Assembly (NCBI GenBank): GCA_030638305.1
Contig: DAOWEW010000161.1
Coordinates: forward strand, 1 to 6,759
Source of the DNA: Desulfobacteraceae bacterium
Lineage (GTDB): Bacteria; Desulfobacterota; Desulfobacteria; Desulfobacterales; ETH-SRB1
DNA: 6,759 bases
Direction: 5' to 3'
In this document: positions 1 through 6,759 of the stretch, one piece after another
Numbering within the stretch: the first letter of the stretch is position 1
Layout of the letters: the number at the start of each line of letters is the position of its first letter
Notes under the pieces: model-generated
Database searches by the model: none
Told to the model about the DNA's origin: nothing
The model's input: the letters and a program-made list of their open reading frames with translations, nothing else
Position numbers and translations under genes: made by a program

Positions 1-192
1 ACCATCAGTAGTCAATATACCGCTTGAGTAAGTTTCTACCTCGCCACCTCCCCCCTGGCTGTTATGCATTGTGTGGCAGTTTGAGCAGACACCACTTATG
101 GCAGTGTCAGCATAACCTGTACCACCTCCCCACAAAAACAGGGGTATTCCCATTACAATACTCGCTAATAATTTCTTTCTTTTTATAAACAT
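1..192 (-). CDS. Multiheme c-type cytochrome, OmcS-like N-terminus (partial, 3' end beyond left edge)
   Basis: Only the first 64 codons are present. The protein begins MFIKRKKLLASIVMGIPLF, a basic then hydrophobic signal peptide, probably cleaved after GTGYA at about residue 28. The mature protein opens with a heme-binding motif, CSNCHTMHNSQGG (residues about 36-48), followed by a Gly-rich stretch. From memory, the G. sulfurreducens nanowire cytochrome OmcS starts its mature chain with GGVAECEGCHTMHNSLGG, so the CHTMHNS block after the first heme is the same in kind; related multihemes that are not filaments also carry it. The ATG is fixed: the next codon set upstream contains an in-frame TAA at 208-210 and no other start, and AAGGA lies 6 nt ahead. 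It is third in the leftward cytochrome operon, about 100 bp after the 6-heme gene. Export with heme attachment in the periplasm is expected. Heme number, length and final location cannot be known from this fragment. Confidence 0.9.
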   Translation of the reverse strand, partial: MFIKRKKLLASIVMGIPLFLWGGGTGYADTAISGVCSNCHTMHNSQGGGGEVETYSSGILTTDG

Positions 193-205
193 TGTTTTTC
201 CTTTT

Positions 206-226
206 CCTTAGTCTTAAAGCTTAAAG
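206..226. repeat. Heptamer array, CTTAAAG family
   Basis: Two perfect direct copies of CTTAAAG (213-219 and 220-226) follow a degenerate copy, CCTTAGT (206-212). The array lies in the gap between the 6-heme gene and the OmcS-like gene, and its end overlaps the ribosome-binding region of the latter. Short, but one of five 7-bp-period arrays in this window. Confidence 0.55.
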
Positions 227-246
227 TTTGTTATTTCATCCACGTT

Positions 247-274
247 CCTAACGGCTAAATGCTAATAGCTAACC
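247..274. repeat. Heptamer array, GCTAANN family
   Basis: GCTAA recurs at 254, 261 and 268, exactly 7 bp apart, with a degenerate fourth unit, CCTAACG, at 247-253. The units differ in their last two bases. The array sits 18 bp past the stop of the 6-heme gene on the minus strand. It shares the 7-bp period, but not the sequence, with the other arrays in this window. Confidence 0.6.
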
Positions 275-291
275 ACACAAGCCGAAAAATT

Positions 292-1161
292 CTATTTCAC
301 TGTGTCTTTTGCAGTATGGCAGGCAAAGCATCCTGTTGAATTATTTCCACCACCGGCTAAAACACTATTATAGTTCCATCTTAACAAAAAAGGATATGGC
401 GTTCCATGCGGGCGATGGCAGGACATGCACATGACCATGGCACTATCCCTTTCGGGTTTATTCGGATCAGGATAACTCACAGGAACGTCTTTTCTATAAA
501 CCTCGTACCCTGCATATTCGCCTTGTAAAGGAAGCTGAGCATTTGTAGGATGGCGGATCCATCCGGTGCCGGATTTCTGGTTTTCAGAACCGCAAAAGTT
601 GGCGTGACATGTAATACAGTACCGGTCGCCACTTTTGTATATATTATGTCCATCGCCATGCTCATACAATGGATCCCTGATCCCCTCAATATCTTCTCCA
701 AGAAAACGATACCCTGCTTTGGTTGCATGATGCCTGACATCTTTGTGGCACGAAGTGCAATAGCCTGCTTTTTCTAAATGAATCTGTCCTGAACTGTAAT
801 AAAAATTTCCACCGGCAAGAGAAATTTCAGGTTCTTTTGCAGATTGTACAATGGGTATGACATTCATACCTGATTTGACAAGCGTTTCGCTGTCCTGGCT
901 TGCGTGGCATCCTTCACATGTATTTTCAAGACTTGATGCATACAGCTTTTTTGACTTTGAAAGTTTGTCTTTCTCTTTTTTATCCTCACAAGCGTGAAAA
1001 ACGTGACAGTCTGAACAGCATTCTGTATTTAGCCGGGCAATTCCATTAGAGGAAAACAGGGTATTTATAGCTATGGCCACCCAAAAAACAGGAAAGATAA
1101 AACAAGCTTTTCTAAAATAGCCATGATTTCCAATATTGTTCAAACTTTTATACATAATCAC
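292..1161 (-). CDS. Hexaheme c-type cytochrome, doubled-CXXCH family
   Basis: The 289-residue exported cytochrome has six CXXCH heme sites, at residues 49-53 (CSDCH), 82-86 (CEGCH), 135-139 (CTSCH), 182-186 (CITCH), 245-249 (CMSCH) and 278-282 (CFACH). A hydrophobic segment at about 18-36 serves as signal peptide or anchor. Blocks such as LAGGNF, GYRFL, GHNIY, WIRHPT, CMSCHRPHGTPYPFLLRWNY and a final CXXCH-TAKD recall the large OmcS-like/doubled-CXXCH cytochrome families of Geobacter-type bacteria; this is recognition from memory, without a search. Cys48, Cys58 and Cys190 lie outside heme motifs and could form a disulfide. The start is a GTG: GAGG (1170-1173) lies 8 nt ahead of it, whereas ATG at 1155 would be 14 nt away. 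The GTG begins 2 nt past the preceding stop, so translation is probably coupled. Likely role: electron transfer in the periplasm or on the cell surface. Exact partner unknown. Confidence 0.95.
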   Translation of the reverse strand: MIMYKSLNNIGNHGYFRKACFIFPVFWVAIAINTLFSSNGIARLNTECCSDCHVFHACEDKKEKDKLSKSKKLYASSLENTCEGCHASQDSETLVKSGMNVIPIVQSAKEPEISLAGGNFYYSSGQIHLEKAGYCTSCHKDVRHHATKAGYRFLGEDIEGIRDPLYEHGDGHNIYKSGDRYCITCHANFCGSENQKSGTGWIRHPTNAQLPLQGEYAGYEVYRKDVPVSYPDPNKPERDSAMVMCMSCHRPHGTPYPFLLRWNYNSVLAGGGNNSTGCFACHTAKDTVK

Positions 1162-1163
1162 AT

Positions 1164-1967
1164 TTATTTCCTCAAATCATGTGCTGTGCTGTGGCAGTCT
1201 GCACATTCCGAATAATGTTTTATCATGCTGTATGGATGGGGACAGCCATGGCATGCCAGGCACGGCGGGATACTTTTATGTTTATCCCGGTGGCAGTAAA
1301 CGCATGCCAGGTCATGGTGTTTGGTGGCATTTTTTTGAAGCAAATCTTCGGCTTCTTTATGACAACTTCCGCAATAATTTGATGGAGTCTCGCGTATATA
1401 AGTTACTTCAAGAGGCTTATGAACGGGATGGCAACTCCTGCATGCCTCAAAATTCATATCCTCGGTGTGTTTTTCATGACATTCCATACATTCGGGAATT
1501 GCCCCGTGGGTTTTATGACATGTGCTGCAGGCCAGATTTGTATGAGCGCTGGGATATTTTTTAAGCTCGGCTTCCTGCTGTGAATGGCATGTCAGGCATG
1601 GTTCTGTAATGTCGCCTTCCATTTTCAAATCAAGAGGGGCATGTGTATTGGAATGGCAGCCGGAGCAATGTTCAAGTTTATAGTGAGGCGCTCCGCTGTG
1701 ACACATATGGCATTCAGGAATAGCTTCGGTTCCGCGTGGAGGGTGTTCTATATGACAGTCAATACAACCGACTTTGGTTTTATGTTTTCCTCCCCTGTCA
1801 TCAATGGTTGTGGGCTGCTGAAAATGGCACTTGATACAGATATTATTTGTTAAAGCTGGTACTGCAACAGAATTATCAGCTATTAAATGGTTTGCAAATA
1901 TTATAAATCCTGTAATAGCTATACTTAAATAGCTTAATAATGTTATTATTTTTTTCCAGTTTTTCAT
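1164..1967 (-). CDS. Dodecaheme c-type cytochrome built of three tetraheme modules
   Basis: The 267-residue protein has twelve CXXCH sites, starting at residues 44, 68, 86, 101, 124, 147, 160, 176, 199, 222, 236 and 255, about one heme per 19 residues of the mature part. The sites fall into three tandem modules (about 44-123, 124-198 and 199-267) with matching internal spacing (23-24, 13-18, 15-19 residues). The third site of each is preceded by Ile-Pro (IPEC, IPEC, IPPC), and the fourth is followed by a nearby His. A hydrophobic segment at 7-27 is either a signal peptide (possible cleavage after HLIA, residue 30) or a single membrane anchor as in NrfH/NapC-type proteins. The start is fixed by an in-frame TGA directly upstream at 1971-1973; the ribosome-binding site is weak. 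First gene of the leftward operon. A 12-heme periplasmic protein near a beta-barrel parallels ExtA/ExtB of G. sulfurreducens (from memory). Inferred role: carrying electrons across the periplasm. Confidence 0.95.
   Translation of the reverse strand: MKNWKKIITLLSYLSIAITGFIIFANHLIADNSVAVPALTNNICIKCHFQQPTTIDDRGGKHKTKVGCIDCHIEHPPRGTEAIPECHMCHSGAPHYKLEHCSGCHSNTHAPLDLKMEGDITEPCLTCHSQQEAELKKYPSAHTNLACSTCHKTHGAIPECMECHEKHTEDMNFEACRSCHPVHKPLEVTYIRETPSNYCGSCHKEAEDLLQKNATKHHDLACVYCHRDKHKSIPPCLACHGCPHPYSMIKHYSECADCHSTAHDLRK
1168..1173 (-). promoter_or_regulatory. Ribosome-binding site deciding a GTG start
   Basis: Read on the minus strand this is GAGGAA, overlapping the last codons of the 12-heme gene. 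Three starts lie below it: ATG at 1163 (followed at once by TGA), GTG at 1161 (8 nt after GAGG) and ATG at 1155 (14 nt). Spacing favours the GTG for the 6-heme cytochrome. Confidence 0.6.
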
Positions 1968-2004
1968 AGCTCAATAACTCACATTTTTACAAGTTTGACT
2001 GACT

Positions 2005-2019
2005 TGATTATCATTATCA
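2005..2019. promoter_or_regulatory. Putative Fur-family operator
   Basis: TGATTATCATTATCA matches the 7-1-7 Fur consensus TGATAATNATTATCA at every fixed position but the fifth. It lies 38-52 bp upstream of the 12-heme start codon. On the minus strand it contains two GATAAT hexamers and overlaps TATGAT, so any of these could also serve as the -10 element; a weak TTGCTA (2028-2033) could be a -35. A bound Fur-type regulator would block that promoter. AT-rich sequence produces such matches by chance, so the call is moderate. Confidence 0.5.
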
Positions 2020-2029
2020 TAAAATAATA

Positions 2030-2046
2030 GCAATAAAATTAATTGC
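2030..2046. promoter_or_regulatory. 17-bp near-perfect palindrome, possible operator
   Basis: GCAATAAAATTAATTGC pairs at 7 of 8 positions around a central A. It is 11 bp from the Fur-like box, on the side towards the plus-strand operon. A related perfect 10-bp palindrome, AATTGCAATT, lies at 2095-2104 inside the predicted plus-strand promoter. Both contain ATTGC half-sites, so one regulator could touch both. No regulator is assigned. Confidence 0.3.
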
Positions 2047-2077
2047 AGAACAGTTTATTCGAACCTTTGAATTTTTA

Positions 2078-2106
2078 TTGACAATTTTGGTCTAAATTGC
2101 AATTAT
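2078..2106 (+). promoter_or_regulatory. Sigma70-like promoter for the propeller/porin operon
   Basis: A perfect -35 element TTGACA (2078-2083) is followed after 17 bp by AATTAT (2101-2106), which matches the -10 consensus TATAAT at four of six positions including the key second A and final T. Transcription would start near 2113, leaving a leader of about 75 nt before the NHL gene that contains a hairpin and a heptamer array. Confidence 0.5.
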
Positions 2107-2125
2107 CTAAAATTCAAATTCACAG

Positions 2126-2154
2126 TTCAAGGTTAAAAACCAACCAACCTTGAA
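2126..2154 (+). repeat. Inverted repeat / leader hairpin
   Basis: TTCAAGGTT (2126-2134) is the exact reverse complement of AACCTTGAA (2146-2154), separated by 11 nt. In the predicted transcript it forms a 9-bp stem about 35 nt ahead of the NHL start codon. No T-run follows, so it is not an intrinsic terminator. The right arm merges into the heptamer array at 2151. Confidence 0.55.
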
Positions 2155-2171
2155 TCCTGAACCCTGAACCT
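2151..2171. repeat. Heptamer array, TGAACCC family (copy 1)
   Basis: Three consecutive 7-bp units: TGAATCC, then TGAACCC, then TGAACCT. The last two units and the following T (2158-2172) recur exactly at 5019-5033, ahead of another gene. The array ends 17 bp before the NHL start codon and supplies the in-frame TGA (2165-2167) that closes the reading frame upstream of it. Confidence 0.65.
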
Positions 2172-2188
2172 TTTGCATAAGAGCTGTT

Positions 2189-3553
2189 ATGAATGAAATA
2201 GTAAAATTCCGGAAATGGAAATATACAATCGTCACTATTATTGCTTTGATTGTAATGCCTGTAACCTCATTATTTCAACATGGTTTGTCAGGTTTACTTT
2301 ATGCCGGGCAAGTTGAAGGTGTCAGGGCCGCATCAGCTTCTTCAACAGGCAGGCAAAAATCAGTTCCTGTAAAAATTACCTGTCTTCAGATTATCAATGA
2401 AGACTATGAGGGTTTGAAGTTATCTTATCCCGGAAATGTGTTGGTTGATTCTGTTAAAAAGGAAATATATGTAGTTGATTCAGGGAATAACAGAATACTT
2501 ATTTATACAAACGACTTTTATCCTCTTTCATCAATCAATAAAACATATGGAATAAACTCACCAGTGGGGATTGCTATAGATTCCGAAGGTTATCTTTTTA
2601 TTGCTCAGTCTCAAGGTAAAGGAAACAAAAAGGGAAGAATTTCTGTTTTAAACCCATCTTTAGGGTGGAAAAAAGATATTTATTTTAAAGGTTTTGAAGG
2701 CGCAGATAATTTTGCGCCAAATGATATTGCCATCAGCAGTATGGGCCATATTTATGTAACAGGCAATTCATATCGTGGAGTTGTAGTTATGAATAAAGAG
2801 GGAATATTTTCTCATGTGTTGACACCGGTTGACAGCTTCGGAAAGTCATCGGAGGAAAAGGCTACAATTCGTGATGTTGAGATAGACAATCAGGGGAACA
2901 TATATCTTTTAAGCGAAGATATGGGACGTATTTACGTTTATGATTCACAAGAGCGTTATCTGTTTAAGTTCGGACAAAAGGGAGGCAGCAGCGGCAAGCT
3001 TAGCCGGCCACGAGGTATTGCTGTGGATGGCGGCAGAAAAAGAATTTACGTTATAGATTATATGCGTCATACCGCAAATGCTTATTCGGACGATGGTCAA
3101 TTTTTATTTGAGTTCGGAGGAAAGGGCTGGGGAAAGGGCTGGTTTAATTATCCTGCTGATATAGCGGTGGATACTTTAGGTAATGTTCTGGTTGTTGATA
3201 CATTCAATAACAGGGTGCAGGTTCTTAAAATTCAAGAAACTCCTTCTATTGAAAAAGTTAAAAAGATTAAACCAAAAGTAACCATAGTCAAAAAAGTTGC
3301 AGAGGCTAAGGTTTTAGAGCCTGAAGTTTCAGAATATTATTTGCTGACGTCCAATATGAACTTACGTGAAGAAAGCAATACGGACAGCAATATTATCAAG
3401 TCCTTAAAAAAAGGCGAAGAATTTCAAATATTAGATGAGCATAAACAAGATAAATCAAACCAATGGTATTTTATAAAAACCAAATCAGAATTAACAGGCT
3501 GGTTTTGTGGAATTTATAACGGAAAGGCCATGTTTGAAAGAATTAGGAATTAG
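2189..3553 (+). CDS. Secreted NHL-repeat beta-propeller with C-terminal SH3-like domain
   Basis: The 454-residue protein starts with a basic stretch and a hydrophobic segment (about 12-30), a signal peptide or anchor. Residues about 80-350 hold six NHL-type blades, each with the pattern (G)-(I/V)-A-(I/V)-D-x-x-G-x-(I/L)-Y-V-x-D and often ending N-N-R-(I/V)-x-(V/I); the first (YVVDSGNNRILIY) and last (VVDTFNNRVQVLKI) are clearest. A Lys-rich linker (about 353-381) leads to an SH3-like domain (382-447), with NLREESNTDSNIIKSLKKGE and a later GWF typical of bacterial SH3 (SH3b/SH3_3) domains. NHL propellers bind proteins or ligands, and bacterial SH3 domains often bind cell-wall peptides; that this one does is inferred. 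There are no heme motifs. The start is certain because the frame closes at 2165-2167 and holds no other start; AAGAG lies 5 nt ahead. NHL proteins are repeatedly found beside multiheme cytochromes in EET loci. Scaffold or assembly role inferred. Confidence 0.93.
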   Translation: MNEIVKFRKWKYTIVTIIALIVMPVTSLFQHGLSGLLYAGQVEGVRAASASSTGRQKSVPVKITCLQIINEDYEGLKLSYPGNVLVDSVKKEIYVVDSGNNRILIYTNDFYPLSSINKTYGINSPVGIAIDSEGYLFIAQSQGKGNKKGRISVLNPSLGWKKDIYFKGFEGADNFAPNDIAISSMGHIYVTGNSYRGVVVMNKEGIFSHVLTPVDSFGKSSEEKATIRDVEIDNQGNIYLLSEDMGRIYVYDSQERYLFKFGQKGGSSGKLSRPRGIAVDGGRKRIYVIDYMRHTANAYSDDGQFLFEFGGKGWGKGWFNYPADIAVDTLGNVLVVDTFNNRVQVLKIQETPSIEKVKKIKPKVTIVKKVAEAKVLEPEVSEYYLLTSNMNLREESNTDSNIIKSLKKGEEFQILDEHKQDKSNQWYFIKTKSELTGWFCGIYNGKAMFERIRN

Positions 3554-3560
3554 GAATTAA
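3540..3560. repeat. Heptamer array, GAATTAG family
   Basis: Two perfect copies of GAATTAG (3540-3546, 3547-3553) and a third with one change, GAATTAA (3554-3560). The array spans the end of the NHL coding sequence: the second copy supplies its TAG stop (3551-3553). The third copy runs into the AAGGAG ribosome-binding site (3559-3564) of the next gene. Confidence 0.65.
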
Positions 3561-3576
3561 GGAGTCCCCCTATACT

Positions 3577-5004
3577 ATGAAAAATTTATGTTGCGTGTTT
3601 ATTTTTTTTCTTATTTTTTTGTTTGCGTCATGCGCCATGAACTCAGGAATAAAGGAAATCAGATATGCTAATGAAGGCCAAATCTTTGTTTATCTTTCTT
3701 CTTCTCAAGAGCCATCAACTGACATTACCTTTATCATTTCCGGCATGAGTTTTATGAACAAAGATGGATTATGGATTGATGTTTCGATGAAACCACGCAC
3801 GATCAATTCAGTAAAGCTTTCAGGAAACCAGATCAAACTCAGGGACTTTTATCTTCCGGAAAATAAATATAAAAAGATAAAGTTGATGGTTACTGAAGCA
3901 AACTTGAAGCATGATGATAAAAAGCATAGTTTGTCTCTTCCCGAGACAGTTAATAATCAAGGAGAAATTCATGGCGAGTTATTGGTTGATATAGATTTTA
4001 ACGTTTTTTATCATGAAAGTTTATGCCTTTTTATAAATTGGGATATAAACAGCGCTATTGTTGACAAATATCTTTTCCAACCAAGACTTGTTGCAAAGCC
4101 GCAAGGCCTGGAAATAAAAAACATTCTTATTTATGTTTCCAATGAAGGTTCTAATTGCGTTACGGTAATTGATAGACAGGAGGATTTTGTAGTAGGGACA
4201 ATTGCTGTTGGAGAAGCGCCAAGGGGTATTACAGCGAGCAGTGACGGAACAAAAATTTACGTAGCTAACTCCGGATCAAACAGTATCTCCGTTATTGACA
4301 CATCGGTGAACAGAGTGAAGGCTACAATTGATAATTGGGGGTATTCACCTGAGGAGCTTGCTTTATCCGGGGATGATAATATCCTTTTTGTTACCAACCC
4401 TGATTCGAATAATGTGTCTGTCATAGATCTTGCATCCAATATGGTAGTTAATCGCATAAATGTTGGGGAAAAACCGATTGATATTGTGGCGGATACGGAA
4501 AGACGAAAGATTTATGTATCAAATTATTATTCGCTTTCAATATCTGTTGTCAATATGGATACACGCGCAGTGGAGAAAACCATAAACCTCAGCTCAAATC
4601 CTAAATATCTGGCGTTGTGTGATGACCGTTTATATATAGGCAATGAAAGTATAAACGATATATATATTGTTTATATTCCGTATAGTTCATCAAATTCGAT
4701 TGATACTGTAAATATAGGTTCCAGGTCGGAACGTCTTATTTGCGGTCTTGCAAACAGAGTGTATGCCGGTAATATTGCTTTTGATGAAATTTATTTTTTA
4801 CATACAAAGTCAGGTGTAATTACAAAAAATATTTCTGTAGGTGGTTCACCGGCAGGAATGGATATTGATGCTATGCGCAGGAAGCTTTATGTAGCAAATA
4901 AGTCGTCAGGGGATGTTTCTGTGATAGATATCAAGACAGAAAGAGTGATAAAAACTGTTCCGGTCGGCAAGAAACCTCATGATATAGTTCTTGTTGCAGA
5001 ATAG
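3577..5004 (+). CDS. YVTN seven-bladed beta-propeller lipoprotein
   Basis: The 475-residue protein has a short hydrophobic leader ending in a lipobox-like LFASC, with Cys19 as the probable lipid-modified residue, so it should be an inner- or outer-membrane lipoprotein. Ala at +2 gives no inner-membrane retention signal by the E. coli rule. Residues about 20-180 form a beta-rich domain that I do not firmly recognise (it slightly recalls DUF4382-type domains). Residues about 183-475 contain seven YVTN-family blades, each with (I/L)YV-x-N....SVID followed by a V(G/N)xxP turn; blade 5 (IYIVYIPYSS) is divergent and longer. YVTN propellers occur in surface and periplasmic proteins and usually mediate binding; some resemble quinoprotein or nitrite-reductase propellers, but no heme or catalytic motif is visible here. 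AAGGAG lies 12 nt ahead of the ATG, and an in-frame TAG at 3544-3546 excludes earlier starts. Second gene of the rightward operon; a docking or assembly role for the conduit is inferred. Confidence 0.93.
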   Translation: MKNLCCVFIFFLIFLFASCAMNSGIKEIRYANEGQIFVYLSSSQEPSTDITFIISGMSFMNKDGLWIDVSMKPRTINSVKLSGNQIKLRDFYLPENKYKKIKLMVTEANLKHDDKKHSLSLPETVNNQGEIHGELLVDIDFNVFYHESLCLFINWDINSAIVDKYLFQPRLVAKPQGLEIKNILIYVSNEGSNCVTVIDRQEDFVVGTIAVGEAPRGITASSDGTKIYVANSGSNSISVIDTSVNRVKATIDNWGYSPEELALSGDDNILFVTNPDSNNVSVIDLASNMVVNRINVGEKPIDIVADTERRKIYVSNYYSLSISVVNMDTRAVEKTINLSSNPKYLALCDDRLYIGNESINDIYIVYIPYSSSNSIDTVNIGSRSERLICGLANRVYAGNIAFDEIYFLHTKSGVITKNISVGGSPAGMDIDAMRRKLYVANKSSGDVSVIDIKTERVIKTVPVGKKPHDIVLVAE

Positions 5005-5018
5005 CAATGGATTTCAAT

Positions 5019-5039
5019 TGAACCCTGAACCTTCAACCC
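5019..5039. repeat. Heptamer array, TGAACCC family (copy 2)
   Basis: Three consecutive 7-bp units: TGAACCC, TGAACCT, TCAACCC. The first 15 bases (5019-5033) are identical to 2158-2172. The array lies in the 48-bp gap between the YVTN and beta-barrel genes, ending 13 bp before the latter's start codon. Confidence 0.65.
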
Positions 5040-5052
5040 TGAGTAGTTACAT

Positions 5053-6759
5053 ATGATTAAATACTGGCTGGTTGTTTTCCTGTTGATATTGACTTTATTT
5101 CAAGTCGCCTATGCTGCTGATAGCATAACCCTCAATTTTGATGGTACTATGAAATCAGAATCAAAGACACTGGAAGGCAAAAAAGATACAGGACGTACTC
5201 TAAACCAAGTGTATCGTCTTGATTTAAGAAAAGATATTACATCAAAAATTTATTTCACCGCCTATGCCGGCGCAAATGCTACTGAAGATACCGAGGAGAC
5301 TGAAGATATTGAGGCGACTGATGGTACGGAAACGACCAGGCTTTCTCCCCAATTTCGTCTTAACATAGCAAATGATTATTTTAATGCCAACGGAGGATAC
5401 CTGTTAAATGAAACAGGCATTGATATGTTCGGCATACACCCGACAGAGGAAACCCGCCTTACAACTGAAACATGGACATCTAACTTTTCTACAAAATCAG
5501 TCAAATATCCTAATATCAGATTTCGTTATGATGAACAGAAGAATTACGACCACTTTTCTGTTCATTCCAAAGATTCGCTTTCCAGGTATTATGAGATACT
5601 CGGTGATTATACTTATAAGTTTGTGAGTTTTACACTAAGACACAGTAAAGATAAAGATTACGATTACGTTAAAGATACAGACGATACTACCACTATAAAC
5701 GAGGGAAGGATAAATTTCAGAGAGTCTTTTTGGGGAAACAGGATAACAACTTCCGGCACTTATACTGTAACCGATACAGAAAAAGAAAACATTACATCAA
5801 CCGATACTTCTTCTACTGATGAAACCAGAAAAGACCTTGTTTTTGATGCAGGATTAAAGCTGAGGCCATTTAAATGGTGTAGGATTTCATATACTTATGA
5901 ACTGGATGATACAGGCGCGAAGGAAGATACAAACATAGATACAAACGCAGATACGGATACAAACGAAGATGAAATTAAAAGCACGGATATTGATCAAACA
6001 GTACAAGCTCATAATATAAGCATTAGAGGGGATGCAAGGCTTCATAAATATTTAAATTCATGGGCTCAGTATCGGAAAAGGCTTGAATATAATTCTGAAC
6101 AGGACAATACATCAACAGATACTTTTACACTTAATTTTAATTCAACACCGATTGAAACACTTAATGCAAACCTTATCTTTAACCATCTGATAAATAAGAC
6201 AGAATCTGAAACCCAAACTGAGATTTCCTCTATGCTTCTCCATATTATTGCAAATATATGGGAAGGAGTTGACCTGAGTGTAGATGGTCAAATTAATTAT
6301 ACGGATAACATTGTTGATGATACAAAGACACTATCAAAAACCATTAATTCTGATCTTCGTTTGAAGCTTACCAAGACGTTGACAACGGAAATTAATTATA
6401 TTACAGAATGGACAGATACCAAGAATTCAGATGGAACGGAAATATCAACGTCCAATTATACTATAGGAACAGATCTTTACTATCGTCCGGTTCAGAGTTT
6501 TTATTTTAAATTCAGTTGTGAATTACAAAAAAATGAAAATGCTGAAGATTTAACTTATTATATATCAGATATTAACTGGATCATGACCGAAAAGCTGAGG
6601 GCAAACTTGCAGTATAAGGTGGATAAAAATTTCAGGGATGATACTAAATTCAGTTCTGATTTAGTATGGAATATGAGCAAAATTTTTGTATTAAAATTTA
6701 ACTATGACTGGAGCAGGGAAAAAGAAAACGATATCTTTACTAAAATCAATACCTTTACA
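5053..6759 (+). CDS. Outer-membrane beta-barrel protein, candidate electron-conduit porin (partial, 3' end beyond right edge)
   Basis: The frame is open from ATG at 5053 to the window end: 569 codons and no stop. A classic signal peptide (MIKYWLVVFLLILTLFQ) ends in VAYA at residue 21, followed by ADS. The mature chain is a long series of amphipathic strands with alternating hydrophobic and polar residues and many aromatic girdle residues (Tyr, Phe, Trp), joined by loops rich in Asp, Thr, Glu and Lys. This is the pattern of large barrels that sheath multiheme cytochromes, such as OmbB/ExtB-type porins, but ordinary large porins look alike. There is no CXXCH and no N-terminal CXXC as in Shewanella MtrB; only two lone Cys are seen (KWCRI, FSCEL). 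No TonB box or plug domain is apparent. An in-frame TAG at 5044-5046 fixes the start; the ribosome-binding site is weak (TGAG, 9 nt ahead). Its place with two propeller proteins, divergent from multihemes, supports a conduit role, which is inferred. Confidence 0.88.
   Translation, partial: MIKYWLVVFLLILTLFQVAYAADSITLNFDGTMKSESKTLEGKKDTGRTLNQVYRLDLRKDITSKIYFTAYAGANATEDTEETEDIEATDGTETTRLSPQFRLNIANDYFNANGGYLLNETGIDMFGIHPTEETRLTTETWTSNFSTKSVKYPNIRFRYDEQKNYDHFSVHSKDSLSRYYEILGDYTYKFVSFTLRHSKDKDYDYVKDTDDTTTINEGRINFRESFWGNRITTSGTYTVTDTEKENITSTDTSSTDETRKDLVFDAGLKLRPFKWCRISYTYELDDTGAKEDTNIDTNADTDTNEDEIKSTDIDQTVQAHNISIRGDARLHKYLNSWAQYRKRLEYNSEQDNTSTDTFTLNFNSTPIETLNANLIFNHLINKTESETQTEISSMLLHIIANIWEGVDLSVDGQINYTDNIVDDTKTLSKTINSDLRLKLTKTLTTEINYITEWTDTKNSDGTEISTSNYTIGTDLYYRPVQSFYFKFSCELQKNENAEDLTYYISDINWIMTEKLRANLQYKVDKNFRDDTKFSSDLVWNMSKIFVLKFNYDWSREKENDIFTKINTFT
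5926..5968 (+). repeat. 12-bp tandem repeat coding an Asp-Thr-Asn loop
   Basis: GATACAAACNNA occurs at 5926-5937, 5938-5949 and 5956-5967, with a 6-bp half unit (GATACG) at 5950-5955. It is in frame with the barrel and encodes DTN-x repeats from residue 292 (DTNIDTNADTDTNEDE). Because units are multiples of three, copy-number change would alter loop length without a frameshift. Confidence 0.65.

Follow-up and report, generated by a model that had tools for sequence, protein, structure and literature searches.

Does the 28-strand outer-membrane beta-barrel encoded beside a set of multiheme cytochromes carry electrons or wire subunits? One locus type bears two published jobs, and the question is raised here by a stretch of 6,759 nucleotides from a Desulfobacteraceae bacterium (contig DAOWEW010000161.1), which is referred to in full as the window. 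The listing of open reading frames (ORFs) with their translations gives six ORFs, three on the minus strand followed by three on the plus strand, diverging from each other: the cytochromes cytA, cytB and cytC on one side, and the propeller protein NHL1, a YVTN beta-propeller lipoprotein and the barrel on the other. Very probably the window covers the left-hand portion of an osc/oet-type cassette, and the bacterium behind it is an Eth-SRB1-like member of the Desulfobacterales. In the reading favored here, to which a probability of roughly 0.65 is assigned, the barrel and the YVTN lipoprotein would act in exporting OmcS-type wires and giving them their shape, as OscE-like and OscD-like components; that the barrel chiefly exports and does not chiefly conduct is held with moderate confidence. 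A first-pass annotation of the window had described the six-gene divergent layout with 12, 6 and at least 1 heme motifs, two propellers and a barrel, which was confirmed by the ORFs, CxxCH counts, domains and AlphaFold2, and had seen in it a unit for extracellular electron transfer that joins a wire to outer-membrane parts, which is supported.

The remainder of the cassette is seen in related loci. In L003 and L005, an LpoB/CsgG/GNA1162-like protein comes first on the plus strand beyond the barrel. Next come a larger protein with a CHU_C-like match slightly too weak for the Pfam cut-off and a further small protein akin to the LpoB-like one, then a PpiC/SurA-type prolyl isomerase, the 26-heme and 16-heme cytochromes and another NHL propeller. 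The hemes were counted in L005 (exactly 26 and 16 CxxCH motifs). The continuation from the LpoB-like protein through the second lipoprotein, the isomerase and the 26-heme and 16-heme genes to NHL was found in the close relatives L002-L005.

Synteny was assessed using tblastn over 41 loci, comprising L001-L007, 20 regions picked by the 26-heme gene (L036-L055) and 14 regions picked by barrel homology alone (L075-L088). The regions of five 26-heme genomes (G276, G320, G080, G375 and G159) and of two barrel genomes (G393 and G758) lay outside these samples, and that of G091 was already present as L053. The barrel was found in 33 of the 41 loci, accompanied by LpoB in 33, the isomerase in 30, NHL in 30, the 26-heme gene in 29, YVTN in 27, the 16-heme gene in 27, the OmcS family in 19 and the 12-heme gene in 7. 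Because L036-L055 had been picked by the 26-heme gene, the 14 barrel-chosen loci are the fairer set; there the barrel was accompanied by LpoB in 14, YVTN in 13, the isomerase, the 26-heme gene and the 16-heme gene in 12 each, and the OmcS family in 11. Several gene misses correspond to contig ends (e.g., L001, L006, L036 and L085), and L083, where LpoB is the one gene seen with the barrel and which may be a different kind of locus, was retained in the counts. Judged by gene neighborhood, the comparison places the barrel, the YVTN lipoprotein and the NHL propeller in one conserved cassette.

In all likelihood, this cassette is the same as the SEEP-SRB 26/16-heme operon (Skennerton 2017), oet (Murali 2023) and Geobacter osc, or GSU2500-GSU2493, so the earlier statement that the gene set matches no named conduit did not hold. 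The operon core, as described in SEEP-SRB1a and 1c, encodes a prolyl isomerase, two cytochromes of 16 and 26 hemes and a six-bladed propeller, surrounded by further propeller proteins and smaller cytochromes (PMC5539420). In L002-L005 these four genes all come after the barrel; the difference is that no known porin was recognized for the operon in that paper (PMC5539420). Murali 2023 names OetA, OetB and the porin OetI, often with OmcX, an OmcS-like protein and the 6-heme Apc2a in the cassette, which was first identified in G. sulfurreducens, where an omcB mutant on Fe(III) oxide expresses it (PMC10553843). The loci L003, L004 and L005 resemble it in that a barrel is combined with two large cytochromes and with OmcX-like, OmcS-like and 6-heme genes, and the bacterial family is the same (Seep-SRB1a/Eth-SRB1; PMC10553843). 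They differ in interpretation, because the barrel is read there as a conduit (PMC10553843). The terms NHL, propeller, peptidyl, YVTN, LpoB, CsgG, curli and discoidin are absent from the main text of that paper (PMC10553843), its supplements being outside the scope.

In Geobacter, GSU2500-GSU2493 forms an eight-gene "nanowire secretion" block downstream of the OmcS-like GSU2501 and has recently been tied to how OmcS matures and is secreted (Shen 2025, via PMC12977616). Its GSU2495 is a 26-heme protein (PMC12977616), which is elevated in a strain deficient in omcB with Fe(III) oxide (PMC10599522). In the osc nomenclature, oscC is GSU2501, oscI is GSU2495 and oscJ is GSU2494, where OscH is assigned to folding, OscE, OscF and OscG to secretion, and OscD to morphology (PMC13194489). 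The order of OmcS-family gene, YVTN, barrel, LpoB-like protein, second lipoprotein, isomerase, 26-heme, 16-heme and NHL is found in L077 and L084, and the window itself has OmcS-family hexaheme genes beside the block and a YVTN propeller followed by the barrel. The window clade differs from osc in three ways: its OmcS-like and 12-heme genes are encoded on the other strand, a CHU_C-like protein is added between the two lipoproteins, and the barrel is without the loop insert of most relatives. From gene order and numbering, the YVTN protein would be OscD-like, the barrel OscE-like, the lipoproteins OscF-like and OscG-like, and the isomerase OscH-like. The oet and osc cassettes look like the same locus type, as judged from gene order and numbering in the literature and not from a Geobacter alignment; if they are, two separate stories merge into a single testable question. 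No paper that uses both the Oet and Osc names was returned by the literature search, the scope of which did not extend to Shen 2025 and the supplements, where the matter may be discussed. In another class of Desulfobacterota, a 26- and 12-heme pair occurs with a prolyl isomerase (PMC12246660). The cassette has been proposed as the center of direct electron transfer between alkane- or methane-oxidizing archaea and sulfate reducers. Its kind is already known; the window clade is set apart by barrels without the insert and by divergent 12-heme and OmcS-like genes.

The barrel gene (5053..6759, plus strand) encodes 569 of the 576 residues of the full protein, so that the window misses the final seven, with a C-terminus of ...SAKF. 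AlphaFold2 applied to 132 relatives predicted one 28-strand barrel with a mean predicted local distance difference test (pLDDT) score of 90.6 and no plug domain. An input of 22 sequences had given a barrel model with a pLDDT of 35, and the 132-row alignment, which is without P0002, P0006, P0121-P0124 and P0128, was used instead. The profile search A5 gave at least one new barrel relative (P0023), and A6 gave at least 119; with a distant homologue as the query, 17 of 395 sampled genomes of the phylum matched at an expectation value (E) ≤1e-10. A loop insert of more than 100 residues, located between strands 11 and 12 and carried by most relatives among P0019-P0022 and P0024-P0139, is missing in 16 of the 132 aligned barrels, all of them from the window clade. 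P0002 and P0006, which are window-clade barrels outside the alignment, likewise lack it. The insert is discoidin-like in part of the insert-bearing barrels, and some sources name such proteins discoidin domain-containing.

The second carrier of the export reading is the YVTN lipoprotein (3577..5004, plus strand, 475 aa), which is OscD-like by position and size. Its YVTN repeats match NCBIfam at E 1e-48 in five stretches, and a lipobox (...LFASC) is seen by eye. OscD models were aligned over 473 aa, and in Geobacter OscD is tied to wire morphology (PMC13194489). The first-pass annotation had proposed that both propellers might make up a scaffold at the surface.

The candidate wire subunits are cytA and cytB. 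The cytA ORF (1..192, minus strand) is truncated at the low end of the window, and its N-terminal 64 aa contain one strict CxxCH motif; complete relatives in L005 and L003 have 364-369 aa and 6 CxxCH motifs. Its paralogue cytB (292..1161, minus strand, GTG start) is a short hexaheme cytochrome of 289 aa with 6 strict motifs, as given by the ORF, the CxxCH count and the profile. The start motif C-x-x-C-H-x-x-H reads CSNCHTMH in cytA and CSDCHVFH in cytB and is present in 23 of 23 relatives. This motif is shared with OmcS (6EF8, 6NEF), as are the six hemes of cytB, and the histidine after the first heme motif is presumably the inter-subunit ligand of OmcS. One heme ligand in OmcS is supplied by the neighboring subunit (PMC6584659). 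Searches of solved structures with the single sequences of L003 cytA and window cytB gave no match. The profile A4, consisting of 21 relatives of the 6-heme proteins without the one clear OmcS (L053), matched OmcS 6EF8 at E 1.1e-21, and no other solved structure fell below 1e-3. The distant cassette L053 carries OmcS proper (E 1.5e-79) between NHL and the YVTN-barrel pair. Profile comparison thus places both cytA and cytB in the OmcS family.

The OmcS family also co-occurs with the 26-heme gene among 389 sampled genomes of the class. The 26-heme gene was found in 29 of them (E ≤1e-60), 22 at an identity of at least 53%, and an OmcS-family match (E ≤1e-20) was obtained in 23 of these 29 versus 4 of the 360 genomes without it; two of those four, G001 and G006, contain the barrel locus itself. 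When the 11 genomes that had fed rows to the profile were removed, the counts were 14/20 versus 2/358 (Fisher p 4e-19, ignoring kinship). At most five candidates were scored per genome, and genomes may be incomplete. In the seven related metagenome-assembled genomes (MAGs) G001-G007, 2-6 stretches each match the OmcS-family query, some of which are fragments of one gene, and in most of these MAGs they sit on more than one contig. Separately, a 702-aa protein in L018 (430-2538) resembles cytA over residues 333-648 (37%); it has a prepilin-like hydrophobic N-terminus by eye, and its Pfam matches are cytochrome domains only.

In the export reading, the wire subunits (cytA and/or cytB) would be loaded with heme in the periplasm and folded with the help of the OscH-like isomerase. 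They would then cross the outer membrane through the 28-strand barrel and its lipoproteins (OscE-, OscF- and OscG-like) and polymerize outside, where the OscD-like YVTN lipoprotein would shape the filament. The finished wires would pass electrons taken from the archaeal partner on to the proteins with 26 and 16 hemes and a 12-heme carrier, and thence to sulfate reduction. Wire export is taken as the likeliest job of the barrel because Geobacter work ties OmcS secretion to these genes and because the conserved chaperone and lipoproteins fit. A marker set of barrel, LpoB, isomerase and 26-heme gene is suggested for finding possible wire-making bacteria in metagenomes.

Several points weigh against export of OmcS-type wires. 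The top Foldseek match of the barrel is MtrB, which is a conduit, and the equation of the barrel with OscE comes from gene order and numbering and not from a direct alignment with GSU2499. The osc role assigned in the primary work of Shen 2025 is known through citing papers, and the importance of OmcS wires for current production is disputed (PMC13194489). The contig of the window runs to 25,386 bp according to the protein record, and the genes downstream of the window barrel are known only through its relatives. In addition, cytB matches the OmcS of L053 weakly in pairwise comparison (BLASTP E 1e-6) and is shorter than OmcS, with 289 aa including the signal versus a solved chain of 407. At E ≤1e-20, no OmcS-family match was obtained in 6 of the 29 genomes with the 26-heme gene (G154, G158, G193, G276, G299 and G375), and the family is missing from the examined stretch in 14 of the 33 barrel loci.

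The published Oet reading is a serious alternative, though the less probable of the two published jobs: the barrel would be an electron conduit porin (OetI) with a multiheme cytochrome, most likely the 16-heme protein, in its lumen, touching the 26-heme surface lipoprotein, and OmcS-like wires would dock there. A possibly MtrB-like barrel beside MtrA-like cytochromes has the look of a conduit, and among solved structures MtrCAB (6R2Q) comes closest both to the barrel, by Foldseek, and to the large cytochromes. The differences from MtrCAB are the missing sequence-family match, the different partners and the 28 predicted strands; the MtrB barrel has 26. The window barrel matched nothing in Pfam or NCBIfam, and the search for conduit families advised in the first-pass annotation returned no MtrB-type curated family among 17 barrel members at E ≤1 in these two databases, of which Pfam, we assume, contains an MtrB/PioB model. 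The conduit-plus-wire interpretation of that annotation stands insofar as a wire module lies at the outer membrane, and it gives way at the barrel, whose cargo may be the wire subunit and not electrons. It is unlikely, though it would unite the osc secretion machine and the Oet conduit, that one machine does both: the barrel would first let OmcS-type subunits out; MtrA-like 16/26-heme proteins would afterwards plug it, the wire base would stay docked on the barrel with them, and the port would turn into a conduit and wire socket. Separate literatures give both jobs to apparently the same genes, and the 33 barrel loci combine an export-like set (isomerase and LpoB) with MtrA-like cytochromes (26-heme and 16-heme); against it, the docked state has no direct support, and the data do not separate it from either single job. 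If it were true, the loop insert, missing in the Eth-SRB1-like clade, would influence what is held at the surface by the socket.

Very improbably, the barrel has nothing to do with the cytochrome genes beside it and is an unrelated transporter or exports polysaccharide. By VIA Z, MtrB is tied with AlgE and OprD-type porins, which would be compatible with such a protein. Against it, LpoB lies beside the barrel in every one of the 33 loci and the 26-heme gene in 29 (12/14 in the barrel-chosen set), and the model has no plug. Among the 17 barrels searched against Pfam and NCBIfam at E ≤1, no transporter family was found beyond generic barrel domains, chance-level rows and a weak CopB match (E 0.099), and the refuting condition named in the first-pass annotation, a barrel that clearly belongs to an unrelated transporter family, did not arise by sequence. 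This candidate was rejected on synteny, and export of wire subunits remains the preferred job of the barrel.

The 12-heme cytochrome cytC (1164..1967, minus strand, 267 aa) was defined by its ORF, its strict CxxCH count of 12 and an alignment of 11 sequences. Each of the 12 Cys/Cys/His sets stays invariant across that alignment, which would not be expected by chance; the row L007:5335 counts 11 by the strict pattern because of an insertion. The name OmcX-like is given to cytC from the literature description only. The best solved relative of the 12-heme family, and also of the 26-heme and 16-heme proteins of L005, is 6R2Q chain A, which we take to be MtrA and which the structure file labels as cystathionine beta-synthase. 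The 26-heme protein of the relatives has a lipobox by eye. The 12-heme protein is at most a candidate partner of the barrel: the conserved large cytochromes are the 16- and 26-heme proteins outside the window, and the 12-heme protein as the wire of the barrel was dropped as the main reading, with matches in the examined stretch of 7 of 33 barrel loci at varied positions and orientations. The match in L049 is an 8-heme piece, and in L051 two 12-heme genes occupy the place expected for YVTN.

The divergent intergenic region (1968..2188) carries predicted promoter-like sites on both strands, with 7 such sites in 1900-2300 versus a shuffle mean of 2.8, and the Rfam scan of the window gave nothing at gathering thresholds. 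A 7-bp tandem run of AACCCTG lies inside it at 2146-2170; together with TGAACCC (5019-5042) and GAATTAG (3540-3559), such runs stand shortly upstream of the three plus-strand gene starts. The neighboring divergent gene sets of the first-pass annotation are kept in 3 of 3 window-clade loci with enough flank (L003, L004 and L005), L001, L002 and L006 ending before this region. Outside the clade the arrangement fails, and divergent order was rejected as a defining trait there, the 12-heme genes being on the strand of the barrel in L007, L051 and L087. NHL1 (2189..3553, plus strand, 454 aa) is a six-bladed NHL propeller with a C-terminal SH3_3 domain, assigned with Pfam and NCBIfam (Pfam: NHL E 3e-20, SH3_3 E 5.5e-9), and has an export signal by eye. 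The SH3_3 domain is present on NHL1 in the window, L002 and L004 and not in L003.

The assignment to the source clade follows from the nearest relatives. A scan of species genomes with the 22-sequence barrel profile led to seven loci in Desulfobacterales, Desulfobacteraceae or Deltaproteobacteria MAGs, two of which are labeled EthSRB1. The nearest named genome is FWG171_EthSRB1, whose barrel is 88-89% identical (L001) and whose copies in L029 are 92% identical for the 6-heme cytB and 91% for the 12-heme cytC; in the other EthSRB1-labeled locus, L003, the barrel is 70% identical. The database proteins P0002 (95%) and P0003 (93%) are nearer still to the window barrel. Eth-SRB1 is a sister genus of Seep-SRB1a and was first reported as the partner of ethane-degrading archaea (PMC10553843).

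Further genes were observed around the cassette in relatives. The divergent neighbors in L041 (1944-3899) and L045 (1231-3235) resemble a heme-export operon, where CcmA lies above the curated cut-off, and CcmC (both loci) and CcmB (L041) lie below it. A CcmF/NrfE-like protein, also below the cut-off, is located about 5 kb from NHL1 in L005. In L007 (14290-16172), and also in L036, L044, L048, L049 and L050, an extra cytochrome of 407-426 aa with 4-5 CxxCH motifs and a small protein of 190-224 aa, which is chemoreceptor-like below the cut-off in L007, sit between the CHU_C-like protein and the isomerase.

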